Below are positions 3,765 through 51,111 of a stretch of 64,000 nucleotides of DNA, piece by piece. The translations under genes were made by a program, and so were the position numbers. Origin of the DNA: Paludibacteraceae bacterium (lineage in GTDB: Bacteria > Bacteroidota > Bacteroidia > Bacteroidales > Paludibacteraceae); contig JAFSMP010000015.1 of NCBI GenBank assembly GCA_017447875.1, positions 1-64,000 of the forward strand. The letters are read 5' to 3'. Under the pieces are notes generated by a model. It made no database searches. It saw only the letters and a list, made by a program, of their open reading frames with translations, and was not told where the DNA came from. How positions within the stretch are numbered: position 1 is the first letter of the stretch; every line of letters begins with the position of its first letter.

Positions 3765-5738
3765 ATGAAAACGAAAGTATCTATTATTCTTGTTTGCCTG
3801 ATTTGGATGGCAAGCAGCCTATCCGCGACGGTATATAACGGCGTGTGCGGTAATGAGTTATCATGGAGGCTTGACACCAATGACAGCATCGTTGTTATCA
3901 CCGGACGTGGAGAAATGTCCAACTTCCAGTTCGATGAAGACAAAAGGCCTTACGTCAAGAGTGTTGTGTTCCCGAAAGGTATAACTCGCATATCTCCCCG
4001 TTCGTTCGAGTATTGCTACAATTTACAATCAGTTACCTTGCCTGATAGCGTAATGTCAATAGGCTACTATGCGTTCAGGAAATGTACCGGTTTGAAGGAA
4101 TTCCATATGGGGAAAAATGTCCGAACTATTGAACTGAATGCATTTCGTGACTGCACTTCACTGCAACGTCTGGTCTTATCGGACAGCCTTGAGACAATAG
4201 GCGTTCATGCCTTTGACGGTTGCAGTGCGATTACTGATACCGTTGTTTTCCCTGAATCTCTTGTTTCTCTCGGAGATAATGCATTCGCGGGAGCGAGTGG
4301 ACCAAATGCCGTAGCCGTGTGGAAAGCAAGGCATTGTAAGAGCGGAGCTAGACCCATGAGTCATTTCACAAAGGTCATATTTGGCGAGAATGTGGAATAT
4401 ATAGGTTCCTATTTGTTCTGTAGTGCACCGTTGGATACGGTTATATTGCCCAATGGCGTGGATACAATCGAACATTATGCATTTTACAAGTGCAGCCTGA
4501 AGTACATTGAGTTGCCGCAGTCACTCAAATATATTGGATCGGTTGCTTTTTACGGAGCTGCATCATTGACTTCTCTGATTGTTCCTGAGAATGTGTCAAA
4601 CATCCCAAGTTCTATGTGCTCCGAATGTAGTTCACTCAAATCTGTCACTTTGCCGGAAGGAATAACGACTATTGAAAATTATGCATTCTATCATTGTAAA
4701 TCGTTATCAAACATCAATATACCGCAAAGTGTGCAGTCTATCGGGGAGCTTGCATTCGCAGGATGTAGTTCTCTGACTTCAGTCTCTATTCCAGAAGGTA
4801 TAACCGGTATATCCGACTGTGCTTTCAGCCTTTGCTTATCCCTGAGAGAGGTGCATTTCCCGAAGTCGTTGACCAGCATTGGTGAAGGAGCATTTCAGGA
4901 TTGTGCAATTGATTCGCTCGACTTTCCTGCATCACTGCTATCAATCGGTGAAAATGCGTTTTCGCGTTTGCTAAACCTCAAGGAATTGTTCATTCCTGAC
5001 GAAGTTCGTCAGATCAAGAGTGGAGCATTCGAAGGGTGTACCGCTTTGCAGAATGTAACGTTCGGCAGAAAAGTTTCCATGATTGATACTGATGCATTCA
5101 AGGGAGATAACCGCCTGACTGAAATAACCTGCAATGCCGTTGTTCCCCCGTTGGCGCAGAGCAGTGCATTCAGCGGAGTGCCCGACACGGCGACATTGAT
5201 TGTTCCCTCACAAAGCATAGAGGAATACACTGCCGATGAGGTTTGGGGACGTTTCCGCATTCAGCAGAATCAAGAACCTGGTCATGTTACAACCGAGACG
5301 ACAGAAACAGCAGTTAACTTTACATGGCCTTCCGTGGAAGGAGCCAGTTACTACACACTCATCATCTGGGCGAATGAAGAGCGTACGGAGAAGATTTGTA
5401 CGCTGACGTTCAACTCCATGGGACAGCTCGTTGAGATCGACTTCTCCAAGCACGCACCTGTACGTCGGGCGATGAACACCGCTGCTTCCTTCTCGTTCCG
5501 TTACAACGGTTTGAGTGAGGGCACCGACTATTGGTTCACGATGACAGCTTCCGATGCCAATGATACGGAACTCTTCAATGCCTCCGGATCCTTTGCTACG
5601 CTCGGAGCAAACATGCCGACCAACATAGACGATGTACAAAGGGACGATGTACAATGTACAAAGGTGTTGCGCAACGGACACATCTATCTGATGTACGAAG
5701 GACGGATGTACGATGTACGAGGAAACAAAATCAAATAA
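3765..5738 (+). CDS. BspA-like leucine-rich-repeat surface protein 1
   Basis: 657 residues. Signal peptide (MKTKVSIILVCLIWMASS) followed by A-T-V-Y-N-G at the mature start. Residues about 70-470 are tandem LRR_5 (Treponema pallidum/BspA type) repeats, recognised by I-x-x-x-A-F-x-x-C-x-x-L-x-x-V-x-x-P every 22-23 residues. An FN3-like module (about 507-615) and the short shared tail follow. BspA-like proteins are surface adhesins in Bacteroidota; binding partners here are unknown. The 5' end is almost identical in DNA to the genes at 5748 and 12251, pointing to duplication or gene conversion. Just before the tail the DNA has a near-heptameric repeat (5631-5666) encoding DDVQ twice. Confidence 0.9.
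   Translation: MKTKVSIILVCLIWMASSLSATVYNGVCGNELSWRLDTNDSIVVITGRGEMSNFQFDEDKRPYVKSVVFPKGITRISPRSFEYCYNLQSVTLPDSVMSIGYYAFRKCTGLKEFHMGKNVRTIELNAFRDCTSLQRLVLSDSLETIGVHAFDGCSAITDTVVFPESLVSLGDNAFAGASGPNAVAVWKARHCKSGARPMSHFTKVIFGENVEYIGSYLFCSAPLDTVILPNGVDTIEHYAFYKCSLKYIELPQSLKYIGSVAFYGAASLTSLIVPENVSNIPSSMCSECSSLKSVTLPEGITTIENYAFYHCKSLSNINIPQSVQSIGELAFAGCSSLTSVSIPEGITGISDCAFSLCLSLREVHFPKSLTSIGEGAFQDCAIDSLDFPASLLSIGENAFSRLLNLKELFIPDEVRQIKSGAFEGCTALQNVTFGRKVSMIDTDAFKGDNRLTEITCNAVVPPLAQSSAFSGVPDTATLIVPSQSIEEYTADEVWGRFRIQQNQEPGHVTTETTETAVNFTWPSVEGASYYTLIIWANEERTEKICTLTFNSMGQLVEIDFSKHAPVRRAMNTAASFSFRYNGLSEGTDYWFTMTASDANDTELFNASGSFATLGANMPTNIDDVQRDDVQCTKVLRNGHIYLMYEGRMYDVRGNKIK
5631..5666 (+). repeat. Degenerate 7-bp tandem array, in frame
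   Basis: Units GATGTAC, AAAGGGA, CGATGTAC (8 bp), AATGTAC and AAAGGTG. It lies in the linker before the C-terminal tail of the 3765 gene. Less regular than the other arrays. Confidence 0.5.
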
Positions 5739-5747
5739 TATACGATC

Positions 5748-7724
5748 ATGAAAACGAAAGTATCAATTATTCTTGTTTGCCTGATTGGGATGGCAAGCAG
5801 CGCCTACGCGACGGTCTATAACGGCAGTCTGGGACCGGAGTTGACGTACACGCTGGATTCCGGCACGGGGCATGTAGTGATCGAAGGCCGCGGAGCAATG
5901 ACGTCGGACGATTTGAGTAACTATCCGAAAAGGGAGTATGTGAAGACCGTTTCCTTCCCGGAAGGGCTCACTTCTATCTGCGCGAACGCTTTCCACGGGT
6001 GCTATAACCTCCAATCGGTCGTGCTGCCGGACAGCGTGACAACTATCGGAGCTTATGCTTTTCAGGAATGCACCAAGATGACCAGCGCCGATTTGGGAAA
6101 AGGAATCAAGACCATAAACAGTCAGGCTTTCATATTCTGCTCAAACCTGCGGAAGGTCAGATGGTCGGATTGTCTCGAATCCATCGGTGATATGGCGTTC
6201 TACAATTGCACGAATTTAGGGGATACCGTTTTCTTTCCGAAAACCTTCAAGACGATGGGATGGGGAGCTTTCGGATCGGAGAATTACAACAGCGACTCCA
6301 AGGTGATGGTGTGGGAAGCGATACACGCAAATGATTTCGTTCGGTATGAATCGGACGTCCCGGGAGAGTGCCATTTCAGCTATATCATTTTTGGCGACTC
6401 GGTGGAATATATCCCAAATATGTTGTGCAAGTTTATGTACAACGACTCCATTACCCTGCCGGAGACGGTCAAAGAGATAGGAGCGAGTGCTTTTACCAAC
6501 TGCAGTCGTTTGCAGAAAATCAATATTCCTGAAGGTGTAACGAGTATTGGAGCGAGTGCTTTTGCGGGATGCAAGAAGTTGAAACAACTGGTTCTACCAT
6601 CCGGATTACAGAAAATACCGGAGCAATTATGCAACCTTTGCGAAGCATTGGACTCCGTCAAATTGCCTGCAGGGCTTACGGTTATTCCCCAAAAAGCATT
6701 TACCGGTTGTTCATCCTTACGATCGATAAAAATACCTAACTCGGTGACGAATATTGGCAATAGCGCCTTTTCCGGTTGTCCGTTGGATACGGTGGTTTTG
6801 CCTACTTCGCTCAACGTGTTAGGCGATGCTGTTTTTAACCAGCTGAACTTGACCACCAGCCCAAAGCACCTGGTCCTGAACGACAAGTTGGTAGCCACCG
6901 GTATGAGTACTTTTGCCAACTGGAGCGACCTGGAGAGTATCGTCATCGGCAAGAACGTAGCAATCCTCGGTCAAGATTGTTTCTTGGCGGATTCATCGGT
7001 AACGGATATCACCTGCTACGCCGCGCAACCACCGCTGATCTACGATAGTACGTTTAACGGCGTGCCGGACACAGCGAAGGTACATGTCATGTCAAGCAGC
7101 GTAGCCGCTTATCGGGCAGCGCAGTACTGGTCGCGGTTCCGGATCGTGGCTTTGGATGAGGAAGAAATCATTCAGAAGACCGTGACGGTCGATCCGGGAC
7201 AGACGACAGCAGATTTCACATGGCCCACCGACTCTGCCGCACACTCCTACCAGATAGATATATACAAAGACGGCGCGGTGTTCTGCAAGCTGACGTTAGG
7301 AAACAGAGGACAGCTGTTAGGTATCTCCTTCTCCGCGCCGAAGCGCAAAATGACCAATCACCAATCAGCAATGACCAATGCTGACGGTAGTCAGTCATAT
7401 ACCCTTTCCTTCAAAGTCACCGGTCTGGATGAGGCCTCGCGATACACGTATGTATTATCCGTTTTGGATGAGAACGATGCTCCGCTGCACGTCTATGTGG
7501 GAGATTTTGCGACTTTGGGATACGAGGGTGAGTTGCAATACGACGGTAACGAACTTATCCCGACACCACCGATTATTCCGGGCGATCCGGATGGACAGAG
7601 TGTCATTACCGGCATCGAAAAAACCGATTCGGAAGGCTCAGAGAAAAAAGCCATTATTGAAGGACGACTTCTCTTTTTTACACCGCAAGGTATCTATGAT
7701 ATAACCGGAAAACGCATCGAGTAA
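5748..7724 (+). CDS. BspA-like leucine-rich-repeat surface protein 2
   Basis: 658 residues; same plan as the previous gene: near-identical signal peptide, LRR_5 repeats at about residues 65-445, FN3-like module at about 475-600, a Pro-rich linker (IPTPPIIPGDP) and the shared tail (GRLLFFTPQGIYDITG). The FN3-like module is almost identical in protein to that of the 12251 gene although the DNA differs at many third codon positions, which suggests selection rather than very recent copying. A five-unit heptamer array lies inside this module at 7350-7380. Placed 9 bp after the 3765 gene and 10 bp before the next, so probably co-transcribed. Function inferred as adhesin. Confidence 0.9.
   Translation: MKTKVSIILVCLIGMASSAYATVYNGSLGPELTYTLDSGTGHVVIEGRGAMTSDDLSNYPKREYVKTVSFPEGLTSICANAFHGCYNLQSVVLPDSVTTIGAYAFQECTKMTSADLGKGIKTINSQAFIFCSNLRKVRWSDCLESIGDMAFYNCTNLGDTVFFPKTFKTMGWGAFGSENYNSDSKVMVWEAIHANDFVRYESDVPGECHFSYIIFGDSVEYIPNMLCKFMYNDSITLPETVKEIGASAFTNCSRLQKINIPEGVTSIGASAFAGCKKLKQLVLPSGLQKIPEQLCNLCEALDSVKLPAGLTVIPQKAFTGCSSLRSIKIPNSVTNIGNSAFSGCPLDTVVLPTSLNVLGDAVFNQLNLTTSPKHLVLNDKLVATGMSTFANWSDLESIVIGKNVAILGQDCFLADSSVTDITCYAAQPPLIYDSTFNGVPDTAKVHVMSSSVAAYRAAQYWSRFRIVALDEEEIIQKTVTVDPGQTTADFTWPTDSAAHSYQIDIYKDGAVFCKLTLGNRGQLLGISFSAPKRKMTNHQSAMTNADGSQSYTLSFKVTGLDEASRYTYVLSVLDENDAPLHVYVGDFATLGYEGELQYDGNELIPTPPIIPGDPDGQSVITGIEKTDSEGSEKKAIIEGRLLFFTPQGIYDITGKRIE
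7350..7380 (+). repeat. Heptamer array in FN3-like module
   Basis: Units ATGACCA, ATCACCA, ATCAGCA, ATGACCA and ATGCTGA (the last unit runs into coding sequence to 7384), in frame. The equivalent position of the 12251 gene also has five heptamers, but of different sequence. Shares an exact 18-base run with the array at 33544-33592 (minus strand). Confidence 0.85.
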
Positions 7725-7734
7725 GCAAGATTTT

Positions 7735-12250: not shown

Positions 12251-14260
12251 ATGAAAACGAAAGTATCTATTATTCTTGTTTGCCTGATTTGGATGGCAAG
12301 CAGCATGTACGCAACGGTTTATAACGGCGTGTGCGGTGAGAATGTGAGCTGGACGCTGGACAGCGAGACCAAGGTACTCACTATATCCGGGACGGGTGAG
12401 ATGTACCATGACGGCCACTTTTCCGATTCTCTTCACTGGCAGGGTCAAAAGCTTACCACTACTATTCAGTCGGTAGTGATAGAACCCGGAGTGACTTCAA
12501 TCGGGTACTGGGCGTTTGCCAATTGTACAAATCTCAAGACCATCAGCCTACCGGATGGTATAACGGTGATAGAAGCCGATGCGTTCTACAATTCAGGTCT
12601 CACATCCATCGTGTTGCCCAATAGTGTCACGGAAGTGCAGGAATCAGCGTTTAGCAACTGCAAACAACTGGCCTCTTGTGATTTGGGACGAGGTATAAAG
12701 CATATCGGCAAGAACTGTTTCTGGGATTGTACTGCGCTCAAATCCCTCAAATGGTCGGATTGCTTGGAGACGATAGGCAGCGGGTGTTTCATTTCCTGGG
12801 GCTCCGGTTCTTCTTCTGACGTCGGTAAGATTCCTTTGCAGGACACATTGGTTTTTCCGGCAACGTTCCGTTCCATGGATGCAATCTTCGATTGTAAGAC
12901 GAACGTCAAAGTGGTCGTATGGAATGCCCGCCGTCCTGAAGGAAGCGGGATGGGTCCGCTGTATAACTACTATCATAGTTATGATGAGATTATCGTGGGA
13001 GACGAGGTAGAAGTTATTCCTAATAATTTGTTCCGCGATCAGAAGAAGATAGACACCATTATGTTGCCGGAAAGTGTCGAATCCATCGGGCAAAATGCGT
13101 TTAACGGGTGTACGAAACTCCAATATATCAACATTCCCGAAAATGTACAATCTATCGGCAATGCAGCCTTCTATAATTGCGCTGCGTTGACGTCATTGGA
13201 ATTGCCGGAAAGTATCAGCGAAATATATGGCACTACATTCTACGGCTGTAAGAGTCTGACGCGAATTCATATTCCAGGAGGCGTGACGACTATCGGCGAG
13301 AGTGCCTTCGTGAGCTGCCCCGCATTGGATTCAATCGTGTTACCTTCAGAACTTACGATGATCGGCGGAAGTGCTTTCTCGGGCATTGAACTGCAGGATA
13401 CGCTCGTTATCCCAGACAAAGTGGTAGCTATCAGTAGCAATGCTTTTGAGAATTGGTCTTCACTCGAATATCTGTCAATCGGTAAGAATGTCACACTTAT
13501 TGCAGACAATGCCTTCAAAGGGGATAGCGCCATTAAGAAAATCACTGTTTGGGCAGCTGTGCCGCCGATGGTATCAGAAGGAACACTCGCTGACATCCCG
13601 GATAGCGCTTGGCTCTCCGTGCTGCCCGATAGCCGCAAGCTCTATCGCGAACATACGTACTGGGGACGTTTCCGCATGGCGGATGTACCGGACTCGGCGA
13701 TGATTCAACGTACTGTGACCGTCGATGCCGCAGAGACGACAGCCGACTTTACATGGCCGACAGATAGTGCTGCACATTCTTACCAAATTGATATTTACAA
13801 GGATGGAGCAGTCTTCTGCAAACTGACGTTAGGCAACAGAGGACAGCTGTTAGGAATCTCCTTCTCCGCGCCGGGCAGAAAAATGTCCAATATGAAATCT
13901 CAAATCTCAAATGCTGACGATAGTCAGTCATATACCCTCTCCTTCAAAGTCACCGGTCTGGATGCGGCTTCGCGATATAATTACGTGCTCTCTACGCTCG
14001 ATGCAAACAGCACGCCGATACACGTCTATACCGGTGCGTTTGCCACTACGGGCTATACGGGCGACAAGCCGGTCGGAGGAGGTGACGAAATCATTCCGAC
14101 TCCGCCGATCATCCCGTCTAACCCGGAAGCATCCGTTCCAACGGACTTGGAGAACACGGAAGATGCCAAAGGACAGCACGGAAAAATGTTCCTCAACGGA
14201 CAACTTTTCATCCTGCATGGCAACCAACTCTATACGATCACGGGGCAACGTCTATTTTGA
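12251..14260 (+). CDS. BspA-like leucine-rich-repeat surface protein 3
   Basis: 669 residues. The 5' leader and signal peptide DNA nearly repeat those at 3765 and 5748. LRR_5 repeats cover about residues 70-460 (FANCTNLKTISLPDGI type), followed by an FN3-like module (about 480-605) nearly identical in protein to that of the 5748 gene, a Pro-rich linker and the tail (FLNGQLFILHGNQLYTITG). A five-unit heptamer array at 13883-13917 occupies the same site as in the 5748 gene. Transcribed from its own promoter and converges on the Nudix operon. Adhesin role inferred from family. Confidence 0.9.
   Translation: MKTKVSIILVCLIWMASSMYATVYNGVCGENVSWTLDSETKVLTISGTGEMYHDGHFSDSLHWQGQKLTTTIQSVVIEPGVTSIGYWAFANCTNLKTISLPDGITVIEADAFYNSGLTSIVLPNSVTEVQESAFSNCKQLASCDLGRGIKHIGKNCFWDCTALKSLKWSDCLETIGSGCFISWGSGSSSDVGKIPLQDTLVFPATFRSMDAIFDCKTNVKVVVWNARRPEGSGMGPLYNYYHSYDEIIVGDEVEVIPNNLFRDQKKIDTIMLPESVESIGQNAFNGCTKLQYINIPENVQSIGNAAFYNCAALTSLELPESISEIYGTTFYGCKSLTRIHIPGGVTTIGESAFVSCPALDSIVLPSELTMIGGSAFSGIELQDTLVIPDKVVAISSNAFENWSSLEYLSIGKNVTLIADNAFKGDSAIKKITVWAAVPPMVSEGTLADIPDSAWLSVLPDSRKLYREHTYWGRFRMADVPDSAMIQRTVTVDAAETTADFTWPTDSAAHSYQIDIYKDGAVFCKLTLGNRGQLLGISFSAPGRKMSNMKSQISNADDSQSYTLSFKVTGLDAASRYNYVLSTLDANSTPIHVYTGAFATTGYTGDKPVGGGDEIIPTPPIIPSNPEASVPTDLENTEDAKGQHGKMFLNGQLFILHGNQLYTITGQRLF
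13883..13917 (+). repeat. Heptamer array in FN3-like module
   Basis: Units ATGTCCA, ATATGAA, ATCTCAA, ATCTCAA and ATGCTGA, in frame. Same length and register as the array at 7350 in the paralogue, but three of five units differ strongly. Confidence 0.85.
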
Positions 14261-19659: not shown

Positions 19660-19687
19660 CTGAATACGGATCGCTGAATACGGATTA
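19660..19687. repeat. Heptamer array over a stop codon
   Basis: Units CTGAATA, CGGATCG, CTGAATA and CGGATTA (period 7, with a stronger 14-bp repeat). Includes the stop codon of the leftward gene at 19685. Confidence 0.75.
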
Positions 19688-20175: not shown

Positions 20176-21321
20176 TTAAAAAGTTAAACCTGTTGCTAAA
20201 ATGATTTGCCAAGCCTGCGCGTGGTCATACTGATGCAGCGCGGCTTGAGGTGCCACGAACCACGAGTAGCGGTTCTTGATAGGGAACGTATACCGGATCT
20301 GCACCTGTTCGGTCCAATGCTGCAAGAACTGATCGTAGTTCGCTATTCCGACAAACAGCATATCGCCTATCGGTAGCGGCAGGCGGTAGTCTCCATAGAT
20401 ATTCGCAAAGATATAATTCTTGCTGTAGTTCTGCGTGACAAGCAGCAGCTGGTAATAGTTGTTGGAGTTGTCGCCGTATATGTACTGCTCGCCTCGTTTG
20501 AGTTCCATGCCGGCCGTTCCGTGTAACCGCCAACGTTGTGCCACATAGCCAAACTGCGCAGATACCGTGTGGGAGTTCAATCGCACGATCGGCACTTGGG
20601 TGTTGATGGTCAACTCTTTGGTGAAGGTAAACCAATCGTACTGGACACCTGCCATAAAACCGGTAGTAGGCAGCAGTTGTAGTCCGGCGCCTGCTCGATA
20701 GCCGCTATAATAACTCTGTTTGTTATTACTCGAGAACCGTGCGTAAGGTTCGGTATCGTTAGCCATATGGTAGATGGTGGTCTCGCCAAGTTCGGAATAG
20801 AACCGTATCTCGTTATTCTGTTTATAGCGTCCTCCGTAGCCCATAAGGCTGAGCGCATATTTGTTCCATTGATACCCGATACTGGCTTCTACGCGTAAGT
20901 CCGACACCTTATTCTTCGCGCGCGGGTCACGCATGCGATAACTCTGTTCAGCGCGGAATTGAAGCGCCGCATGCCACAAGATATGATTCTTAAGCATACG
21001 ATAGCCGCCTCGGAAATAATAGGTCTCCCGACGCATGTCACCGCCAACCGTATCCATCGTCCAGTAAGGAGCGATCATCCGATAATCGGCATTATCGACT
21101 CCGCGCATCTGCTTGCAGTCCTGCCAAGTATATGACGCTTCACCGAACACGCGGCTGACAGGATTGATGTCATACACCGATCGTGCTTCTACCGCAAAAC
21201 CTGCCGTCTGCCGACCTTCCAGCACTTGCGTACCTTGCCCGAACTGTCCGGAAAGGAACAGGTCCGTGCGTGCCGTGTCGGTCACCAAGGCAGTTAATAT
21301 GACGAGAATAGTTGTCAGCAT
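20176..21321 (-). CDS. DUF6850-like outer-membrane beta-barrel protein
   Basis: 381 residues. Short hydrophobic N-terminus (MLTTILVILTALV), then a chain of alternating aromatic strands (VFGEASYTWQDCKQMRGVDN, YYFRGGYRMLKNHILWHAAL, YRAGAGLQLLPTTGFMAGVQ) ending in IILATGLTF, as expected for an outer-membrane barrel. From memory it matches the family annotated DUF6850, usually found next to DUF4876 lipoproteins and a TonB receptor. The start codon lies inside a heptamer array. Function unknown; the operon suggests a metal or cofactor uptake role. Confidence 0.78.
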   Translation of the reverse strand: MLTTILVILTALVTDTARTDLFLSGQFGQGTQVLEGRQTAGFAVEARSVYDINPVSRVFGEASYTWQDCKQMRGVDNADYRMIAPYWTMDTVGGDMRRETYYFRGGYRMLKNHILWHAALQFRAEQSYRMRDPRAKNKVSDLRVEASIGYQWNKYALSLMGYGGRYKQNNEIRFYSELGETTIYHMANDTEPYARFSSNNKQSYYSGYRAGAGLQLLPTTGFMAGVQYDWFTFTKELTINTQVPIVRLNSHTVSAQFGYVAQRWRLHGTAGMELKRGEQYIYGDNSNNYYQLLLVTQNYSKNYIFANIYGDYRLPLPIGDMLFVGIANYDQFLQHWTEQVQIRYTFPIKNRYSWFVAPQAALHQYDHAQAWQIILATGLTF

Positions 21322-21343
21322 TCAGTATTCAGCATTCAGTTCT
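21316..21343. repeat. Heptamer array bridging stop and start codons
   Basis: Units CAGCATT, CAGTATT, CAGCATT and CAGTTCT. Contains both the stop codon of the DUF4876-like gene (21336-21338) and the start codon of the DUF6850-like gene (21319-21321). Confidence 0.85.
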
Positions 21344-22529: not shown

Positions 22530-22538
22530 AACCTTTAT
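22504..22538. repeat. Heptamer array bridging stop and start codons
   Basis: Units CCTATAA, CCTTTAA, CCTATAA, CCCATAA and CCTTTAT. Contains the TonB receptor stop (22535-22537) and the start and first codons of the DUF4876-like lipoprotein, so part of its signal peptide is repeat-encoded. Confidence 0.88.
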
Positions 22539-25066: not shown

Positions 25067-25074
25067 ATCGGGCA

Positions 25075-25106
25075 CAAAATTACTGCTTTTTTTTGACATA
25101 TGCAAG
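25075..25106 (-). promoter_or_regulatory. Bacteroidota promoter, A-tract/GCAG class
   Basis: Minus strand: CTTG (25106-25103), 20-nt spacer with eight A then GCAG, TAATTTTG (25082-25075). The predicted start site is only a few nt before the TTG start codon, so the leader would be very short. Confidence 0.8.
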
Positions 25107-25118
25107 CATAAGTGCACA

Positions 25119-27656: not shown

Positions 27657-27671
27657 AAAATGGGTATTCCG

Positions 27672-31471: not shown

Positions 31472-31511
31472 GAGTAAATGAGAAAATGTGAAAATGAGAA
31501 AATAATTAAAT
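31472..31511. repeat. Octamer array in intergenic gap
   Basis: Five 8-bp units: GAGTAAAT, GAGAAAAT, GTGAAAAT, GAGAAAAT and AATTAAAT, starting 2 nt after the Dcu stop codon and ending 6 nt before the next start. Same style as the heptamer arrays but with period 8. Confidence 0.85.
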
Positions 31512-32144: not shown

Positions 32145-34763
32145 TTAGCGTTCAAACAGACGTAACAGACGCATTTTCGTTTCACCGGCTTTACCGGTAT
32201 AAGGATGTTCGCGCAACGAGAGATTGAAGCGCGAACTTCCTTTTAGTACGGTCTGCGGGTGTGTGAACTCGCGGAAACCCCATTCGCCGTGGTACGCGCC
32301 CATGCCCGAATGACCGGTACCGTTGAATGGAACACCCTTCACCATCATATGTACACACACTTCGTTGATGCAACCGCCGCCAAACTGCTGGGTCTGCATG
32401 ACGCGTTTGGCCCATTTCATGTTTTTCGTGAACACATACATCGCTAAGGGGTGCTCACGGTCGGCTATCACGTCCATGAGGCTGTCCACTTCGGCATCTT
32501 TGAACGGCACAATCGGCAACAGCGGACAGAAGAGTTCGTGTTGCACGATCGGTTCGTTGCTATCGACGGGATAGATGATGGTCGGAGCGTATCTGCGTGC
32601 AGTCTTGTCCCCTGTTCCGCCAAAGACGATACGCTCGCGATGAGCCTCCGCTAACTTAGCGCACTTGTCGTACGCCGTGTCTGTAATCAGTTTCGGGTAC
32701 TCCTCGTTTTGCTCCGCATGTTCGCCGATCTGCGCCACAAAAGCCGCTTTCAGTTCCTCTATGAACGCCTCTGCCACCTCTTCAGCCACGGCTATCTGGT
32801 TGATGTTGATGCAAATCTGCCCTGCGTTGAGGAGCTTGAAGAACGCTATCTTGCGTGCCGCGTCTTTGAGGTCTGCGTCTGCCCGTACCACACACCAGTT
32901 ACCTGTCTCGCCGCCTAACTCCAGCGCTACCGGTGTGAGGTTCTTCGCTGCTTCGGCGAGTACGTGTTTGCCTACCGACGGACTACCGGTATAGAAAATC
33001 TTATCAAAGCGTTGCGCAAGACACATATCCGCCACGTCGTGACCGCCGTCGATAAGCGTGATATATTCCGGCGGGAACACTTCCGCAAAGAACTTCTTGA
33101 GCGCTGCCGTGCTGGCAGCGGACTTCGAACTGGACTTGATCACCACCGTGTTACCGCCGCACATGGCTGCAGCTACGACGCCTATCGTCAGCAGAATCGG
33201 GAAGTTAAACGGACTAATCACCAGCGTCACGCCGTACGGCATTTTATAGACCTTCGTGAAGATACTCGGCCAACACATGAGTCCGCTGAAATGGATCTCC
33301 GGCCTCGACCATCTGCGCAGACCCGCAATCATCTCATTCACTTCGGTGATAATCGGCCCTATATCGCACAGATACGCCTCCATCTCACTTCTACCAAGGT
33401 CCTCGCATAACGCGCCGATTAACTCGCCTTGATGAGCTACCACGGCTTCTTTGAGGCGCTTGAGTTGTTTGATACGCCATTTAATCGGCAATGTCTCGCC
33501 GGTCCGGAAGAACTTTCTCTGCGTTGCCACGATGTCACGAATCTGCGATTCGTTATTTGTGATTGGTGATTGGTCATTGGTGATTTGGTCAAGTATCGCC
33601 TTGATATCCGCATTGTTGAGTGTCACCGGCGCCGAATAGTTGATCGAATCGGCGGCAATCATCGGAATCAGTTGTTCGTGATCGCAAGCGCGTACCGGCG
33701 AGACGATTTGGTCCATTCCGCATGTTGCCATCAGTTCGCGTATCGCTTGCAGGAAATCAGGCACGTTGCAGTATTTCGCCAAGGCCTCATAGTGCGCCTT
33801 GCAAGCTTCTTTCTGAAACTCCAGCACCGGCATCAGCATCAGCGAGATAGCTTGCCCGTGCGAGAGATGGTACATAGCCCCTATACTGTGTGCGAATGCG
33901 TGCACATATCCAGCCAGTTGCGTGTTGATGGCGTTACCACCATACATCGCCGCCTTCGCCATATTCAACCGTGCTTGCTCTGCTCCTTCACTCGTTAATT
34001 CTTTCACTCCTTCACTCGTTAATAACGGTAGATTCTCCAGAATCAACTTCACGCCTTCCATGGACATGCGCATATCTTCTTCATCGACCTCCGTATCACT
34101 CACCGCCCCTTCGATACAATGACTCAGCGCGTCGATACCGCACGCCGCAATCACAGGCTTCGGTGCATGTTCGGTCAACTCGCTATCATGTACGACATGC
34201 GTCACCTTCAGGCCGATCAGCACGGTCGAGCCTTTAGCGCCGTGGTCGTTCGTTACCACGGCGCCGACGGTTACTTCCGCACCTGTTCCGGCAGTCGAAG
34301 GCACCATGATTAGCGGCAGCGAGTTGCCGGGAACCGGCAGGAACTTCAGCAGCAGCGCTTTCACCGGCACATGGGGCATCTTGCAACCCGCGGCTATCAT
34401 CTTACAACTATCCATCACCGACCCGCCGCCTAACGCTATGATCGCTTCCGCTTTGGTCTCCAATGCCTGCTGACGCCCTGCTTCAATAATGGCGATCGTC
34501 GGCTCGGAGTGAATGTCGCAGAAGAGCGAAGCGTTCACTCCCGCCTCATTCAAAGACTCTAATATCGCCTCGTCATAGCCCAAACGATGCAAGGTCTCGT
34601 CGGTTACTACCAGCACTTGCTTGTAACCTGCCTTCTTGCACATTGCGCCGATCTCACGACGCGCGCCTTGACCTGCTGTCACCTCCGGTTCCGGCAGTGG
34701 GATGGCGTGTATCACCTTCCCTGGCAATCGGTGAATCTGTTTCCTGAATCGATATGTATCCAT
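32145..34763 (-). CDS. Bifunctional fusion: iron-type alcohol dehydrogenase plus aldehyde dehydrogenase (reversed AdhE order)
   Basis: 872 residues, cytoplasmic. Residues about 1-388: Fe-dependent alcohol dehydrogenase with the nucleotide motif GGGSVMDSCKMIA, STAGTGAEVT and metal ligands in GIDALSHCIEG, YVHAFAHSIGA and LSHGQA. Residues about 410-872: aldehyde dehydrogenase resembling class 3, with VISPFNFPILL, FYTGSPSVGK, the catalytic Glu in ELGGE (normally ELGGK), the catalytic Cys in NAGQICI and the C-terminal SGMGAYHGEWGF. AdhE has the opposite order. The two domains are joined by a heptamer array (33544-33592), and an octamer array lies at 33983-34022. Likely converts an aldehyde to both acid and alcohol or passes it between sites; substrate unknown. 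Confidence 0.9.
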   Translation of the reverse strand: MDTYRFRKQIHRLPGKVIHAIPLPEPEVTAGQGARREIGAMCKKAGYKQVLVVTDETLHRLGYDEAILESLNEAGVNASLFCDIHSEPTIAIIEAGRQQALETKAEAIIALGGGSVMDSCKMIAAGCKMPHVPVKALLLKFLPVPGNSLPLIMVPSTAGTGAEVTVGAVVTNDHGAKGSTVLIGLKVTHVVHDSELTEHAPKPVIAACGIDALSHCIEGAVSDTEVDEEDMRMSMEGVKLILENLPLLTSEGVKELTSEGAEQARLNMAKAAMYGGNAINTQLAGYVHAFAHSIGAMYHLSHGQAISLMLMPVLEFQKEACKAHYEALAKYCNVPDFLQAIRELMATCGMDQIVSPVRACDHEQLIPMIAADSINYSAPVTLNNADIKAILDQITNDQSPITNNESQIRDIVATQRKFFRTGETLPIKWRIKQLKRLKEAVVAHQGELIGALCEDLGRSEMEAYLCDIGPIITEVNEMIAGLRRWSRPEIHFSGLMCWPSIFTKVYKMPYGVTLVISPFNFPILLTIGVVAAAMCGGNTVVIKSSSKSAASTAALKKFFAEVFPPEYITLIDGGHDVADMCLAQRFDKIFYTGSPSVGKHVLAEAAKNLTPVALELGGETGNWCVVRADADLKDAARKIAFFKLLNAGQICININQIAVAEEVAEAFIEELKAAFVAQIGEHAEQNEEYPKLITDTAYDKCAKLAEAHRERIVFGGTGDKTARRYAPTIIYPVDSNEPIVQHELFCPLLPIVPFKDAEVDSLMDVIADREHPLAMYVFTKNMKWAKRVMQTQQFGGGCINEVCVHMMVKGVPFNGTGHSGMGAYHGEWGFREFTHPQTVLKGSSRFNLSLREHPYTGKAGETKMRLLRLFER
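33544..33592 (-). repeat. Heptamer array at the domain junction of the dehydrogenase fusion
   Basis: Seven units on the plus strand: TGCGATT, CGTTATT, TGTGATT, GGTGATT, GGTCATT, GGTGATT and TGGTCAA. Encodes a polar linker rich in Asn, Thr and Gln exactly between the two enzymes. Shares 18 bases with the array at 7350. Confidence 0.9.
33983..34022 (-). repeat. Octamer array inside the alcohol dehydrogenase domain
   Basis: Five 8-bp units: CTCCTTCA, CTCGTTAA, TTCTTTCA, CTCCTTCA and CTCGTTAA. In frame, residues about 248-260, encoding LTSEG twice on the surface side of the metal-ligand helix bundle. Confidence 0.85.
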
Positions 34764-38170: not shown

Positions 38171-38240
38171 ATTTCCACCTTATTTCCACCTTGTCACAAT
38201 ATATGCTCAATATATGCTCAATATATGCCGAATATATGCT
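38171..38240. repeat. Two 11-bp tandem arrays
   Basis: ATTTCCACCTT twice (38171-38192), then four units CAATATATGCT with two substitutions (38197-38240). Intergenic, after the small basic protein gene. Confidence 0.85.
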
Positions 38241-38648: not shown

Positions 38649-41600
38649 TTAGCGGTTTGGTTGGATCAGACGCAAGGTTACGGAATCAAGTCCGCAGGGC
38701 ATGACATCCCAATTGCCGTAATAGGAGACTTTGCCTCCCTTGAGGTTGGCGATATTGGCATCTTTGAAATTGCGCCAGACGATGCCGCGGCGGTCCATCT
38801 CGGCGAGGTAGTTGGCCGCCAGCGAGGAGACCTCGATACGAAGGGAGTTCTTGCCGGGACGGAGGTACGGAGTAATGTCCAGCAGGAAGGGGGCACAGAA
38901 GAGCGTACCGGCATCGTGGCCATTGACATATACATGCGCCGACTCGCGGACTCCGGACAAGTCAAGTAATTGACGATTTGACGATTTACGATTTACGATT
39001 TTCTTGCTTAGGCGGAAGGTAGTCTCATAGGCAAACGTACCGACGGCATCGGGATAGAGTGAACTCCAATATTGAGGATCTTTGATTGATGATTTAGGAT
39101 TTACGTTTTGGAAAGAACGCACGTCAACAGGGGTCACGGTCCAATTATTTACCGTTTGGACATTTACCATATGGTCATTTAGCATAGGTGCATGCGGGAG
39201 CGGATATGTGATTTGGCAGCCATCGGGTGAGACGGTGAGGAAGCAGGATTCGCCGCTATGAAGGGAGAGGCGAACGCTGTCGTTAGTGACCGAAGGATGA
39301 ATAAACGTATCCACCGCTACGGGTTGCAGGTTCGTGATAAAATAGAGCCAACCGTTATCCGTTCGGCGGCGGATAGTCTTGACACCGAGGTTTTTCATCG
39401 TCTCGGGCCGGATGGATGTGCGCGCAAGGGCGGCTTGGTAATCGCCGTCGGAGACACGTATGATTTTGGCGCCTTGTGCCTCCAACGCGGCAATACGTGC
39501 CGCAGTAGAGGGCGGCAGACGCTTGACCTCGGGCAAGACGAGTGCCGCATAGGTAACGCCCGAAGGAGCGATGAGTCTGCCCTCTGCATCGACACCGCGG
39601 ATGGAGTCAATCATCCGGTCGGACACATAGTCGGGGTCATAGCCGGCGTTGTATATCTCATTGACCGCCCGGATGAAACGCGGGGCGACCTTGTCCATCT
39701 TATGGATATCAAAAAGCAGCAGCCGTCCGGGATACTCCGCCCAGATGTCATAGACGGGCAGATAGAGCAACAGATCATTGTCGGGTGTGCCGGACTGCAT
39801 CGCTTCCTGCACACGCTGCATGTACGAGAGGAACGCCGGTGCGTCGCGCCAGATGGTGTTCTGCGGGTTCATCTCCATAGCGGCGTAGAACAGATAGCCG
39901 GGCCATGCAGCGGACTGGGGCGAATAAGCCGTACCGTGGAAATAGCAACGGTTGACACCCGCCACCATCATCAGGTCGAAATCCGGCTTACATTGGCTGA
40001 ACGAAGTACGGAAATGCTCGGTGAGCCAAGTGAACGTCTCCGCCGTGACAAGCGGTTTGCCATAGAAATGCGCGACGGACGCGGGGTATTTGAGCATGGA
40101 GAGATCGGAGTAGTTGGGCCGTGTGAGGGTGTCGGTACGGAGACCCTTGATCCCGAAATCCGAGAGTCCGAAGCCCTCTATCTCGGGAATATCGACTGCG
40201 GCATACATATCCAGCAGGTTCGCCGGCGAGCCATGGGACTGGTTGCGCACCTGCACGCCGTGGCTATGGCACCAGTTGACCCAGACCTCGGCAAAGTTCT
40301 CCATGAGCAGTTCGGCAAGGGTCTGCCGGTAATCCATCTTGACCTGCTCCTGCTCGTCCAGCAGTTCGGCATAATGATCTTGCAGCCGGTATCCACGCCG
40401 CCGCTCGAACTCCACCAGAAGACTGTCTGTCCAGTCGGCGCCATAGACCTCGTAGGAGTCGTTGAAGAAGGTATGGGGGAACGGTACGCCGGAGCGGGCA
40501 AAAGCGGTATCGAACTTGGAGAGGTAAAACTCCACCGCTTCGCGTGAGAAATGATCAAGCACGAAACCCTCGCCGCCGGGTGCAGCCCGTTTGACTTTCT
40601 GGCGAGTAGGCACAATCTCAAGGCGGATAGAGTCTCCCTCACGGTGGAAGACCGCTTTCTTGGCGGCATACCGGGCGGAGATCTCCGGTCCTCCGAAAGG
40701 CCAGCCGGTGCCGTTGTTCATATCTATCTGCACGCCGAGCCGTGCACCCTCGGTCTCGCACCAGCCGAGCATATTCATCCACCGCGGCGAGAGATAAGGG
40801 ATGTCGTTCTGTTCGTTACCCTTGACGCCATAGATAGGGGTAATCTCCACCGCGCCTATACCGGCTTTGCGGAGGGTCTCCAACTGGTAAGTGATACCGG
40901 CTGAATCAACTGCCGAACCGAGCCACCACCAGCAGGTACCGGGGAGCGTTCTGTTATGGGCTGATTCGATAGACGTCTGGAGTTTCTGCACCTCCGTAGC
41001 ACAGAGAAGGAAACATCCTACTCCATAGTCCTCGAAATCGGGCAAGCGGTCATAGGTGACAGGTTGTGAGTCTTTGGGCTCCTTGCCGGTACCCTGCTGG
41101 TAGCCTAACATACCATCGGGGTGGACACAGTCCCGCACCATCGCCTCCCAGGTAGCAAGGATCATCGGTTCGTATTCCGCACGCGGTAGCAGCCCGCGGT
41201 TGACACACCATGCATAGCCATAGATAAAGAGCGAGGTGCCGGTCACTTCTTTACCTCCGAAATCGGTAGAGTCCGCGAGAGAGCAGTTCCAGAAATAATC
41301 CTGCCGCTGCAATGGACGCAGTCCTTCGAGCAGGGAGAGGAGATCGGAAACATATTCGTTGTAGTGCGGATCGGAAGGTTGCATCTCGTCGAGCACGCGG
41401 CATAACGCCGCCACTACCCATCCGTCGCCACGGGACCAGTAACAGTCTTTTCCGCCCGGAGTCTGGTATGGCGGATTGAAATCACGGTCCCGCCACCAGA
41501 GTCCGTTAGCAGGGTTTCGCAGGCCTCCGTCCTGCCTGTTACGGGTATATTCGTACATGCGCCACGCTTTGTCGGCATAGCGGGTGTCGCCCGTTGTGCG

Positions 41601-45119: not shown

Positions 45120-45142
45120 TATAGCAAACTTCAAAAACTGCG

Positions 45143-45150: not shown

Positions 45151-45161
45151 CAAAAAATATC

Positions 45162-45186: not shown

Positions 45187-45255
45187 AAACTTTGTTTTTT
45201 TATTCAAAATTGCCCCTAATAAGTGGTATAATTTTCTACTTTCATTTTTTTTTCG

Positions 45256-45263
45256 TATCTTTG
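45256..45263 (+). promoter_or_regulatory. -7 box of the hybrid two-component gene
   Basis: TATCTTTG preceded by nine T and CG; no clear upstream element. The start codon is 20 nt downstream. Confidence 0.7.
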
Positions 45264-45282
45264 CAGGCAAATCATGTGAGTC

Positions 45283-48666: not shown

Positions 48667-48709
48667 ATCATTTGAACAATCATACGGGGTGCAAACCAAG
48701 ATAAAGTTA

Positions 48710-48717
48710 TACTTTTG
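48710..48717 (+). promoter_or_regulatory. -7 box upstream of the fimbrillin-like gene
   Basis: TACTTTTG followed by CACC; no TTG element 20 nt upstream, so activation by a regulator is likely. Confidence 0.55.
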
Positions 48718-48721
48718 CACC

Positions 48722-48749
48722 GTGAATTAGTTGATAGTTGACAATTGAT
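48722..48749. repeat. Heptamer array before the fimbrillin-like gene
   Basis: Units GTGAATT, AGTTGAT, AGTTGAC and AATTGAT, in the 5' leader between the -7 box and the start codon at 48760. Confidence 0.75.
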
Positions 48750-48759
48750 ATTAAAAGTT

Positions 48760-50283
48760 ATGATAAAACGTATTTTTCAATCCATTATTATTTGTACCGC
48801 CGTACTGAGCCTTGTTGCTTGCGAAGGCAAGAAACAGGAAGAGGTAGCCAGTGAGGCATTAGGTGTCAAAGCCCGTATAATGGGTTTTGAGAGCAACAGC
48901 GAGTCATGGAGTGCCGGAGACACGATAGGTGTCAGTATTCCGGCGGTGAACAACAATTTCAATGTGCCTTACCGGACGGATGGTGACGGCGCTTTCAGCG
49001 CGGTGGGTTCGCCGGTGTATATCGTCGGTACGCAGGAGCATGAGGTGGCTGCCTATTATCCGTATTGTGCAGTTGCGACTCAGAGTGCGCCGGAGGTTGC
49101 ATTTGAAGAGCCGGTAGATTGGCTTTTCGCCAAGACGACTGCGGACAGGGGACATACCGCTTTGCAGTTAGAGTTCCACCACGTTATGTCGCGTCTGACG
49201 ATACAGTTTTCCGAAGAGGTAAACTATCAGATATTCGGTATCGTGCAGTCCGGTAAGATTAATACGGCTACCGGAGCGGTTACTGTTACCGGTTCGCCGC
49301 AGGAGATTACAGGTAGCGGCAAACAAGTGGATATACTGGTACCGGGGCAGACTATAAACGGCTCGGCGAATGTTGTATGGGGTGAGCGCACGTTCATCGT
49401 CAGTCTCAACATGACATTAGAAGCCGGCAAACGGTATTCGTACCGTGCCACGTTAGACGAGGAGACAGAGTCTATCGCTTTGGAAGGTATCAGCGGCAGT
49501 ATCGTGCCGTGGGAAGAAGTGGACGGAGGCGAACTGGTAGTGACCGAGAAAGAGCCGGATCTGAGTGTAGGCGACTATTACTTGGCGGACGGTACTACGG
49601 TGAGTCACCTGCGTACGCTGAGCGCAGCGCAGAAAGCACAAGTAATCGGTGTAGTATGCGAGTTAGGGGTTAATTCCGACGACTCCACCCGCTTGGCGGA
49701 TTTTCCCGCATGCACCACCGGTAAAGTCATTGCATTGTACGACGCTACGGCTCGCGCATGGAACACCGAGAGTGTATCCACCACCATGTGCGCATGGATG
49801 ATCAATCAGGGACTGGAGAACCAGTACCTCTGGCCGGCAAGATACAAGAAAGATGCGAGTGCCGAGGGTATGATCTCGTCTTCCGCAAGCGCCAACCGCG
49901 ACAAGGTATGCCAAGGTTATAATAACACCAAGTTATGGAAACAACATGTAGGTTCAACTACCACGTACGCCGCTCTGTCGGCTCTCGGCAGTATGAGTGC
50001 ACCGGACGGTACAACCGGATGGTATATAGCCTCGGTAGGCGACCTGAGTGCGTTGCTGGTGGATGCGTCTATTGATCCCACCGTGCAGGCTTCACTCAAT
50101 GAGTTAGGGGCGGCATTGCCTTACGGTCAATCTATATGGAGCAGTACTGAGTCATGTCTCAATAACGGCAGCCAGGCTTCCATGACCGTTAACTTCAAGA
50201 ACGGCGAGGGAAATGCTACTATTGGTCTGGGCAAAGCAATCCACACCAAAACTTATCCGGTGGTGATGATGCTGAACTTTTGA
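48760..50283 (+). CDS. Fimbrillin-like lipoprotein with C-terminal Fibrobacter-paralogue-like domain
   Basis: 507 residues from ATG 48760. Lipobox SLVAC. Residues about 25-250 match the fimbrillin/Mfa-like pattern: W-x-x-G-D-T-I-G-V near the start, AAYYPYCAV, DWLFAKT and LEFHHVMSRLTIQ. The second half (about 270-507) has DYYLADGTTVSHL, the Trp/Gly-rich GTTGWYIASVGDLSAL and QSIWSSTESC, like the domain of Fibrobacter succinogenes major paralogous proteins. Placed in a pectin locus directly after the regulator, it may be a surface glycan-binding protein rather than a fimbrial subunit; that is inference. Confidence 0.82.
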   Translation: MIKRIFQSIIICTAVLSLVACEGKKQEEVASEALGVKARIMGFESNSESWSAGDTIGVSIPAVNNNFNVPYRTDGDGAFSAVGSPVYIVGTQEHEVAAYYPYCAVATQSAPEVAFEEPVDWLFAKTTADRGHTALQLEFHHVMSRLTIQFSEEVNYQIFGIVQSGKINTATGAVTVTGSPQEITGSGKQVDILVPGQTINGSANVVWGERTFIVSLNMTLEAGKRYSYRATLDEETESIALEGISGSIVPWEEVDGGELVVTEKEPDLSVGDYYLADGTTVSHLRTLSAAQKAQVIGVVCELGVNSDDSTRLADFPACTTGKVIALYDATARAWNTESVSTTMCAWMINQGLENQYLWPARYKKDASAEGMISSSASANRDKVCQGYNNTKLWKQHVGSTTTYAALSALGSMSAPDGTTGWYIASVGDLSALLVDASIDPTVQASLNELGAALPYGQSIWSSTESCLNNGSQASMTVNFKNGEGNATIGLGKAIHTKTYPVVMMLNF

Positions 50284-50316
50284 TAATTGATAATTGACAA
50301 TTGATAATTGAGAATA
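50282..50316. repeat. Heptamer array over a stop codon
   Basis: Five units: GATAATT, GATAATT, GACAATT, GATAATT and GAGAATA. Starts inside the stop codon of the previous gene and ends 2 nt before the next start at 50319. Confidence 0.92.
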
Positions 50317-50318
50317 CT

Positions 50319-51092
50319 ATGAAAAAGATGATTATGGCTGCCATGCTGATGGCAAGTAGCGTGCTGAATGCACAAGTGGTTAAACAGGATCTGCTGAACG
50401 GTTACGCAGATGGTGACGTATTGGAGAAAGGCGCATATACGAGCAAGGAAGACGCTCCTAAAGAGGGTGTCTGGATGGGTGCTTTTACCAGCAAGGAAGA
50501 GAGTGCCGCTCTGCCTTCTCCTACTATCACCGCCGGTGTTGAATATACCGGTTATCCAGAGAAAGGCGTTGCTATCCAATTAGGTTTCAGTAATGGAGAG
50601 AAAGGCAGTCGCCACTCGTGCTGTGCCTTAGGTGACAACAAGAAAAAGGGTGTATATTACCTTAGTGCGGTAGTCCGCATGGACAAGGTGGGTAATACAG
50701 GAGACAGTGAACTGTTCGGTCTTACTCCCTCTCGCACCGGCGGAGCCGGCAAAGTGCGTGCGATGATCGTTCGCGACGAGGAGAACAAGAAAGTGATGCA
50801 TTGGGGCGCTTCGCTGGGTAAGAATGTGGTGATGAGTCCGAAGGCGTTTGCTGTTGGCGAGACGGTGTTGGTTGTGCTCAAGGTGGATTACACAAAGAAC
50901 AGCGTCAGTCTGTTTGTCAACCCGGATCTGAGTGCTGCTGAACCGGAAGCGTTAGTAAGCGTCAATTCCGATGAGGAGAACATGTTGAGCAAATGGCCTA
51001 TTCGTACGCTGACCTTGCGCAACCGCAATGCGTATCAGGGAGCAGTCGGCAGTTTCCGTCTGACCAACTCGTGGGAACAATTGGCTAATTGA
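50319..51092 (+). CDS. Exported lectin-like (LamG/concanavalin-type) protein
   Basis: 257 residues. Signal peptide MKKMIMAAMLMASSVLNAQ. The mature part has beta-strand patterns of a LamG-type jelly roll: GVYYLSAVVRMDKVGNTGDS, VLVVLKVDYTKNSVSLFVNP and AVGSFRLTN. No catalytic residues recognised. Sits between two fimbrillin-like lipoproteins and ahead of PL9, so glycan binding at the cell surface or in the periplasm is plausible. The start is ATG 50319; the 5' leader is a heptamer array. Confidence 0.78.
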   Translation: MKKMIMAAMLMASSVLNAQVVKQDLLNGYADGDVLEKGAYTSKEDAPKEGVWMGAFTSKEESAALPSPTITAGVEYTGYPEKGVAIQLGFSNGEKGSRHSCCALGDNKKKGVYYLSAVVRMDKVGNTGDSELFGLTPSRTGGAGKVRAMIVRDEENKKVMHWGASLGKNVVMSPKAFAVGETVLVVLKVDYTKNSVSLFVNPDLSAAEPEALVSVNSDEENMLSKWPIRTLTLRNRNAYQGAVGSFRLTNSWEQLAN

Positions 51093-51111
51093 AAATTGTG
51101 AATTGTGAATT
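51084..51111. repeat. Heptamer array over a stop codon
   Basis: Units GCTAATT, GAAAATT, GTGAATT and GTGAATT. The stop codon of the lectin-like gene (51090-51092) lies inside it, and the next start (51114) is 2 nt after it. Confidence 0.9.

Follow-up and report, generated by a model that had tools for sequence, protein, structure and literature searches.

What are the short, degenerate tandem arrays with a 7-bp unit that are scattered along a stretch of 64,000 nucleotides from a Paludibacteraceae bacterium (order Bacteroidales; GenBank assembly GCA_017447875.1, contig JAFSMP010000015.1, positions 1 to 64,000, hereafter the window), and what could have produced them? An earlier note on this DNA listed 15 such sites between positions 5631 and 51111 and argued for a process that creates or edits 7-bp units. 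Arrays of period 7 do exist, in numbers that far exceed chance, and they characterize the genus to which the genome belongs. Our favoured explanation, with a probability of about 0.5, treats them as short simple-sequence arrays of heptamers that arise through a continuing mutational process with unusual activity in this genus, slippage copying being combined with the seeding of new arrays from a genome-wide pool of units.

Period-7 arrays are frequent across the genus

Arrays were scored at a fixed lag, with +1 for a match and -2 for a mismatch. In the window, ten period-7 segments reach a score of at least 9, compared with a mean of 0.6 in five dinucleotide simulations; at periods 6, 8 and 11 the window has 2, 2 and 3 such segments, and in the output of Tandem Repeats Finder the period-7 rows outnumber those of every other period. 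The survey of the source genome covered 841,530 bp in 61 pieces including the window, i.e. about 37% of a 2.25-Mb assembly of 70 contigs that is 77% complete. At a score of at least 12, 81 arrays of period 7 were detected, together with 26 of period 8, 15 of period 11, eight of period 9, eight of period 10, six of period 6 and none of periods 5 and 13; the 58 arrays of period 14 are probably for the most part a harmonic of 7. A Markov-4 simulation of 808,055 bp contained no period-7 array at the same score. In the surveyed part of the genome, the outcome that the earlier note had named as a refutation, a period 7 no more frequent than periods 6 or 8, did not occur.

For the genus, at least 121 species genomes are available for comparison, one genome per species; array densities outside the source genome were compared on stretches rather than whole genomes, and L- and G-numbers are the labels of the compared sequences and genomes. 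Stretches from 20 other genomes of the genus, totalling 341,653 bp, contained 47 period-7 arrays (138/Mb), and density within the genus is 96-138/Mb. Twenty stretches from other genera and families of Bacteroidales (400,000 bp) contained three arrays, with none in the 40,000 bp of this sample that belong to a sister genus of the same family. One array was found in the class sample (11 stretches, 220,000 bp) and two in the phylum sample (nine stretches, 180,000 bp), which gives six arrays per 800 kb in the 40 stretches of other Bacteroidota together. Among single 50-kb stretches, that of Parabacteroides had two period-7 arrays and that of E. coli K-12 none. On the strength of the simulations and the comparison stretches, chance or base composition was rejected as the source of the arrays, and the impression given in the earlier note that similar tracts are general in Bacteroidales is not supported. 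It can be mentioned that one sequence of a different Bacteroidales family (G242:C38, L120) carries a single degenerate seven-periodic array of about 46 units of the CCCGATT and CTGACTC types.

Arrays share a vocabulary of units that differs between species

The 81 arrays of the source genome use 49 units and form 64 same-unit pairs, whereas 3.2 pairs are expected when units are replaced by nearby heptamers (maximum 11 in 400 draws) and 11 when their letters are shuffled (maximum 23). The idea that each site has its own unit is therefore roughly correct in the window and incorrect genome-wide. The 47 arrays of the other genus members form 63 same-unit pairs, compared with 1.5 for local heptamers. 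In units, AA/TT is enriched and TA is depleted. Of 61 arrays outside genes, 35 have a unit that is also used within genes (8.6 expected), so the vocabulary is not the product of coding constraint alone. When the 15-bp flanks of 20 arrays of the source genome were compared by eye, using the four commonest units, each with at least four arrays there, the flanks looked unrelated and no shared ends were seen; arrays with the same unit are thus not one repeat transposed with its surroundings, as the earlier note had already maintained. Exact threefold repeats of AATCACC were also observed in twelve IMG/VR stretches (L244-L255, viral_contigs).

The vocabulary differs from genome to genome. For 171 arrays (score of at least 10) from 43 other genomes of the genus, pairs at different loci share a unit in 31 of 499 cases within a genome (6.2%) and in 222 of 12,320 cases between genomes; in 300 permutations of the units, sharing within genomes reached at most 3.8%. 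Whole-genome counts of places with AATTCAN x3 relative to the wider AAWTYAN x3, which overlap within arrays and are not array counts, differ strongly between genomes: the AATTCAN share is 23/24 in G053, 27/28 in G037, 13/13 in G014, 11/12 in G046 and 17/18 in G057, and 0/31 in G036, 0/34 in G006, 0/27 in G030, 0/32 in G049 and 1/21 in the source genome. Even the variable letter can be specific, since G046 has pure AATTCAT in 10 of 11 listed places and G031 has AATTCAC in 8 of 10. In the reversed-sequence control AATTCAN was 0 in all 61 genomes; AAWTYAN was high in G048 (155) and G043 (50). Several AATTCAN users are about equally distant from the source genome by IspH identity, and these may form a clade.

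Arrays are made and remade at orthologous sites

Orthologous junctions and loops bear different units or none. The ends of the DUF4876 gene were compared between the window and eight genome records. At the stop codon, where the window has CTGAATG, arrays with a score of at least 10 occur in three of the eight (AATTAAA in L063, AAAACTG in L067 and AATTAAT in L069); L064, L065 and L066 have shorter or 14-bp repeats by eye, and L068 and L070 have no repeat there. Around the start, where the window has AGGTTAT, six of the eight have arrays at this score, with units such as TTGAAAG, AGTTGAT and AAAGACA. In G015 (C8:22381-23558) the DUF4876 ortholog matches in two overlapping pieces, one of them with two TAA, which suggests a frameshift in that genome.

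The situation is similar within proteins. Thirty orthologs of the TonB receptor of the window, its own included, were aligned at the loop that carries the array at 28726. Six of them have other seven-periodic sequence in gap-free alignment, as judged by eye (TCAGTAT in L150, TCAATTA in L151, TTAGCGG in L156, CCATTAG in L159, TCAGCCT in L168 and CCAATTA in L170); at a score of 11 the source genome and L172 alone pass, and about half of the orthologs have a shorter, aperiodic version of the loop. In MnmE, six of 30 orthologs including that of the source genome have an array (score of at least 10) in the loop between G4 and G5, with six different units; L185 of this set was read only as a truncated frame. 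Of 30 IspH orthologs, seven have arrays in one loop and nine in a second loop, which was judged by position. The same MnmE loop in L175, L176, L183 and L191 contains a similar, partly palindromic stretch encoding SL(H/Q)GET, which may be another small dispersed element.

Differences by whole units were also seen between close relatives. L065 and L066 (94.5% identity) differ by 42 bp, which is 6 x 7, and L063 and L069 (87.6% identity) by two 7-bp differences; between L154 and L155 (91.5% identity) the flanks are intact, and L155 has an array of about 60 bp whose unit is untraceable by eye in L154. Together with the different units at orthologous sites, these differences agree with the process that creates or edits units proposed in the earlier note.

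Position of the arrays relative to genes

Placement was analyzed for 128 period-7 arrays in 1,156,644 bp of the source genome and the genus, with genes called by a dicodon method that had been trained on the same sequences (88.7% coding). Fifty-three arrays, 40 of them in the source genome, lie deep in genes, which is 0.51 of the background. A further 31 lie in co-directional gaps shorter than 150 bp (16-fold over background), five in convergent gaps of this size (17.6-fold), 12 inside a gene and no more than 60 bp from its start (1.9-fold) and two within 30 bp of a stop; the remaining arrays are in other gaps (20) or at contig edges (5). The survey of gene frames thus confirmed that the arrays lie over stop and start codons or in frame within proteins.

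The 40 deep-in-gene arrays of the source genome occupy 36 genes, 22 of which were scanned with Pfam. Among the array-bearing genes are those for CinA, a Mur ligase (MurE by PDB matches), phosphatidylserine decarboxylase (two arrays), a DegP-like protease, a MiaB/RimO-type radical SAM protein, MnmE (two arrays), TrmO, IspH, NadA and RimP. One of the MnmE arrays sits between the NKxD and SAK motifs (G4 and G5). The array-bearing loops of MnmE are shorter than those of the solved protein 3gee, so that the arrays are not plain additions to proteins, and their presence in conserved enzymes argues against phase-variable contingency, in which repeat length switches the frame or promoter of surface genes, as a general role. 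A stop-free heptamer array is translated as a seven-residue repeat, for example NHQSPIT or VESQKSK.

Array length, adjacent hairpins and variation within arrays

Counted by whole units at a score of at least 9, the genus arrays (n=187) comprise 33, 51, 76, 19, 3 and 5 arrays of two, three, four, five, six and more units. The corresponding scaled counts for other Bacteroidota are 17.7, 8.9, 1.5 and 1.5 for two to five units, plus one very long array, and the Markov simulation yielded ten two-unit arrays and one three-unit array. The two-unit class at a score of at least 7 numbers 127, compared with 109 in the scaled controls and 87 in the simulation. Four units are the modal length above background, with the caveat that badly decayed three-unit arrays could be missed in these counts. 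Frame constraint was rejected as the cause of this mode, because four units are the commonest length of intergenic arrays (27 of 56) as well as of arrays deep within genes (32 of 53).

Perfect hairpins with a stem of at least 5 lie within 3 nt of an array edge in 20 cases among the 128 arrays, compared with 5.0 expected, and there is little excess farther away in this first set. The share of arrays with an adjacent hairpin is 0.18 in intergenic regions (0.041 expected) and 0.11 deep in genes (0.033 expected), and among arrays of periods 6, 8, 9 and 11 the fraction that has a hairpin no more than 6 nt away is 0.00-0.07. A second set of 104 arrays at other loci gave 12 hairpins against 4.0 within 3 nt and 25 against 7.6 within 10 nt, with control positions unmatched for gene or gap and with some loci orthologous to those of the first set. 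Variants inside arrays are mostly two-state, as expected if variant units are copied, and a hypervariable letter inside single arrays was rejected (12 positions with at least three bases, 27.4 expected). Across loci, variants cluster at certain unit positions in five of eight unit families, for instance at position 4 in 10 of 17 cases for AATCACC; these families were chosen after the fact, their counts are small, and three of them are even.

Arrays of the window

Nine of the 15 sites listed in the earlier note are strong (7350, 13883, 21316, 22504, 28726, 33544, 38969, 50282 and 51084, scores 11-20), three are weaker (5631, 39071 and 48722, score 8, P about 0.01) and one is marginal (27252, score 6, P 0.03, mixed with periods 14/15). 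The sites at 19660, a 14-bp direct duplication, and at 39144, a 15-bp repeat, do not have period 7. With two such sites and a mixed one among 15, the description of the period as a strict 7 bp was too strong.

From left to right, two short forward-strand runs of ATGTACA/GATGTAC (5644-5661 and 5690-5720, together 5644..5720) occupy the 3' end of the gene at 3765-5738; they carry 15-bp higher-order repeats according to Tandem Repeats Finder, with a lag-15 score of 12 and a lag-7 score of 8-9. Two arrays on the forward strand lie within genes with Pfam LRR_5 matches: AATNACC at 7349..7380 (score 13) in the BspA-type gene 5748-7724, where it encodes KMTNHQSAMTNA, and AAATCTC at 13889..13912 (score 11) in gene 12251-14260. 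On the reverse strand, CTGAATG (coding strand, 21315..21339, score 12) spans the junction at which the DUF4876 gene (21336-22529) stops and the DUF6850 gene (20176-21321) starts, and AGGTTAT (coding strand, 22502..22533, score 16) lies between the TonB-plug receptor gene (22535-25117) and the DUF4876 start. The marginal site is a degenerate run of AAATTAA/AATTATG with period 7/14 (27253..27287, forward, score 6, Tandem Repeats Finder) in gene 26589-27656. It is followed by TCAACCT at 28726..28751 (forward, score 16), which belongs to a loop, LNFQPSTFN, in the product of the TonB receptor gene 27660-29684.

The array AATCACC (coding strand, 33548..33585, reverse, score 16) lies in an interdomain linker of gene 32145-34763 on the reverse strand, in which an iron-containing alcohol dehydrogenase (Fe-ADH) is fused ahead of an aldehyde dehydrogenase (ALDH) in one protein; the Fe-ADH part extends to residue 377, the ALDH part starts at residue 388, and the array sits between the two. 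The usual domain order of AdhE is the reverse. AAATCGT (coding strand, 38978..39001, reverse, score 14) and a weaker run at 39083-39103 (reverse, score 8) are located in gene 38649-42080, of GH88/GH106 type by Pfam. Three forward-strand arrays lie at gene borders at the end of the listed region: TAGTTGA at 48728..48748 (weak, score 8), directly upstream of or over the start of the fimbrillin-like gene 48745-50283 (Pfam); TTGATAA at 50280..50315 (score 20), which spans the stop of that gene and the start of gene 50301-51092; and AATTGTG at 51087..51111 (score 12), which spans the stop of 50301-51092 and the start of the fimbrillin-like gene 51105-51923.

Two other periods were observed in the window. 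Period-8 arrays, the second commonest short-period class, are exemplified by 31472-31503. Arrays of period 11, one of the most frequent classes next to 7 and 8, were seen at 38197-38239 and 56324-56367 (four copies in the window) and also at L059:10033-10111 and L098:2119-2174; they lie mostly outside genes, as regulator sites might. For one gene of the window, the relatives found were one Pedobacter and eight uncultured Bacteroidales, among them two Paludibacteraceae, which came from the reticulum of a goat and the rumen of a roe deer.

Possible origin of the arrays

In the process that we favour, DNA synthesis would stall, sometimes at a hairpin, and the growing strand would slip back by a 7-nt register and write a patch of about 30 nt. 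New patches would also be seeded when a stretch of an existing array elsewhere in the genome is copied by template switching with little homology; this step, which we infer from the shared vocabulary and the dialects, would yield both of them. Selection would then leave patches at harmless sites, namely short intergenic gaps, where units containing stops are allowed, and surface loops or linkers in which the net frame is kept and the unit is stop-free on the coding strand. The process would require no cellular function of the arrays, and no set of arrays with a demonstrable function was found in these sequence analyses.

Several observations weigh against this explanation. Free slippage predicts a steady fall from two units on, whereas the observed distribution has its mode at four and drops sharply after five, and a four-unit mode above background is not what unchecked slippage predicts. 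A hairpin adjoins only 20 of the 128 arrays, and in the second set the hairpin excess extends well past the array edge, with 34 hairpins against 12.1 at a distance of up to 20 nt. No array was directly observed to have been copied from another: arrays with the same unit lack shared flanks, and no donor could be matched with a recipient. Among the 47 arrays from elsewhere in the genus, the 63 same-unit pairs are a small excess over the 48.5 obtained with letter-shuffled units (maximum 57), because A+T-rich units coincide easily. The dialects are graded in some genomes (31/93 in G033, 10/31 in G031, 10/29 in G019 and 9/24 in G005), and part of them may reflect arrays inherited at the same loci. 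In L154/L155, the clearest pair with and without an array, the array-less L154 allele has no seed unit, and its difference from L155 may be a gain or a loss alike. Finally, in 76,062 aligned bases of nine pairs, some of which overlap so that some events were counted twice, 7-bp indels (7) were not commoner than 6-bp indels (12), contrary to a simple genome-wide rule of 7-bp slippage.

The nearest competitor, which we hold to be possible and clearly less probable than slippage with seeding, is purely local slippage with an intrinsic preference for certain units: each site would duplicate its own heptamer, only some heptamers would slip well, and the DNA polymerase would hold a stretch of 7 nt (Mrazek et al. 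2007, as quoted in excerpts of PMC4679880 and PMC4692102). At the DUF4876 stop, the unit does track the local stop context (AACTGA, AATTAA or AATTGA in six sequences, by eye), and the whole-unit differences between relatives, the AA/TT-rich and TA-poor composition of the units and the heptamer excess reported from many bacteria in the same excerpts all fit local duplication. It does not account well for the 64 same-unit pairs of the source genome, far more than local heptamers (3.2) or random units of the same composition (11) provide, for dialects that differ within the genus at equal composition (AATTCAN versus AAATCAN), or for a four-unit mode that is not geometric. A dedicated trans-acting writer, either a putative enzyme with a short nucleic acid template or a repair polymerase with a fixed footprint, would extend stalled or broken ends by a patch some 30 nt long of a genome-specific heptamer. 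It would explain the dialects down to the variable letter (AATTCAT in G046, AATTCAC in G031), with a change of template changing the dialect, and would suit the modal four units, the adjacent hairpins and the positional clustering of variants in five of eight families. We nevertheless consider it improbable, since the source genome has 49 units in its 81 arrays and one template would not do; its boldest form, in which an RNA- or DNA-templated polymerase or a repair polymerase with a fixed footprint writes some four heptamers in the species' dialect wherever a fork stalls or a break occurs, and the arrays are telomere-like templated scars new to bacteria, is to be judged with the same reserve.

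Slippage with seeding is also preferred to two explanations that we regard as more doubtful still. Heptamers before start codons could be selected regulatory elements that bind a post-transcriptional regulator, as suggested for the TAACTGA repeats of Beggiatoaceae in excerpts of PMC4679880. The enrichment in short co-directional gaps (16-fold) and just inside gene starts (1.9-fold) would fit such elements, yet short convergent gaps are equally enriched (17.6-fold), 53 of the 128 arrays lie deep in genes including those for MnmE, IspH, MurE and NadA, and one and the same junction has different units or none across species; regulatory selection is thus quite unlikely as the origin of the arrays. 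We give the least credence to the loss by the genus of a repair function that removes slipped loops or hairpins. Such a loss would agree with the finding that the hairpin nuclease subunit SbcD passes the TIGR00619 cut-off in no more than 10 of the 61 genomes of the genus, many of which are incomplete. However, four SbcD-positive genomes (G019, G036, G048 and G053) have 24-31 places of the AAWTYAN family, the other six positives having 0-9, and six SbcD-negative ones (G008, G009, G011, G020, G028 and G056) have none; as judged from this one unit family, SbcD-positive genomes can be array-rich and SbcD-negative ones array-poor, so the absence of SbcD does not explain the arrays. MutS loss was rejected as a cause, because MutS was found in the source genome and in 22 of 24 genomes of the genus. 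A second MutS_I-domain match was noticed at G000:C2:23385-23633, inside an open frame of 3,328 residues.

Comparison with known heptamer repeats

Why 7 bp is favoured, and how arrays come to share a unit genome-wide, are questions that a comparison within the genus makes testable. Its basis is at least 121 species genomes with about 100 arrays/Mb, with dialects, and with conserved enzymes in which the same sites carry arrays, and species preferring different units amount to a natural experiment on the origin and spread of repeats. For protein evolution, the arrays supply stop-free linkers with seven-residue periodicity in loops of conserved enzymes.

Dispersed heptamer arrays are known from cyanobacteria such as Calothrix and Nostoc as short tandemly repeated repetitive (STRR) sequences. 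The earlier note had named these as the nearest parallel, and the parallel is a fair one. In 300 kb of Trichormus plasmids we found eight period-7 arrays, compared with three of period 11 and one or two at each of periods 6, 8 and 9, and one 50-kb stretch of Gloeothece had three period-7 arrays. The genus thus has in common with cyanobacteria the dispersed heptamers and, in the Trichormus plasmids, an excess at 7 and then at 11; density is lower in the sampled cyanobacterial sequence than in the genus. Three heptamers of Calothrix are mentioned in the excerpts of PMC4692102.

More generally, heptamers are the commonest class of long simple sequence repeats (SSRs) in most bacterial genomes, and slippage together with the polymerase footprint has been proposed as the reason (Mrazek et al. 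2007, as quoted in excerpts of PMC4679880 and PMC4692102). Like heptamer SSRs, the arrays consist of tandem 7-bp units in excess over chance and over neighbouring periods, related units are dispersed at unrelated loci with unrelated flanks, and copy number shifts by whole units between relatives, though few such events were seen. Heptamer SSRs are expected to be mainly non-coding; of the present arrays, which are enriched in short gaps and depleted in genes (0.51-fold), 53 of 128 nevertheless lie deep in genes. The 7-nt class and the slippage setting are shared with the long SSRs as quoted there. The arrays of the genus differ from these in their shortness (mode four), degeneracy and density (96-138/Mb), and also in that they often occupy conserved coding sequence and are divided into species dialects.

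Two systems with fewer units are described in the excerpts. TAACTGA direct repeats occur in Beggiatoaceae, Cyanobacteria and five Bacteroidetes, where related heptamers are rarely repeated (PMC4679880). They resemble the present arrays in being heptamer tandems, many of them near start or stop codons, with stops in three frames of one orientation, and TAACTGA itself is among the units of the source genome (L039:10605). They differ in having one unit (MacGregor 2015), as opposed to the 49 units in 81 arrays counted here, and copies within genes mostly at protein ends rather than inside conserved domains. The GGGAATC/GGGGAYT repeats of Xanthomonas and Nostoc are dispersed, prefer four units, and vary in length and sequence between close species (PMC4692102); the present arrays likewise are dispersed heptamers between aligned genes that prefer four units and change between close species. 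The preference for four is tied there to G-quadruplex formation (Rehm 2015), which would need a run of at least three G or C in each unit. Such runs were found in 4 of 128 arrays, so that four units need another cause in the genus, and a four-unit mode without G-runs bears on the G-quadruplex reading of the four-unit mode in Xanthomonas and Nostoc.

Among the matches listed in the open-access literature, none describes such arrays in the genus or family. The remark in the earlier note that it knew of no formal description has to be qualified by the heptamer SSRs described in other bacteria (PMC4679880, PMC4692102). The excerpts of PMC4692102 state that detailed literature on heptamers is lacking, and those of PMC4679880 that no mechanism of heptamer spread is evident. 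From their sequence features, the arrays belong in kind with heptamer SSRs and cyanobacterial STRRs; they differ in their density, their residence in conserved coding sequence, the many units that coexist in a genome and the dialects of the species.

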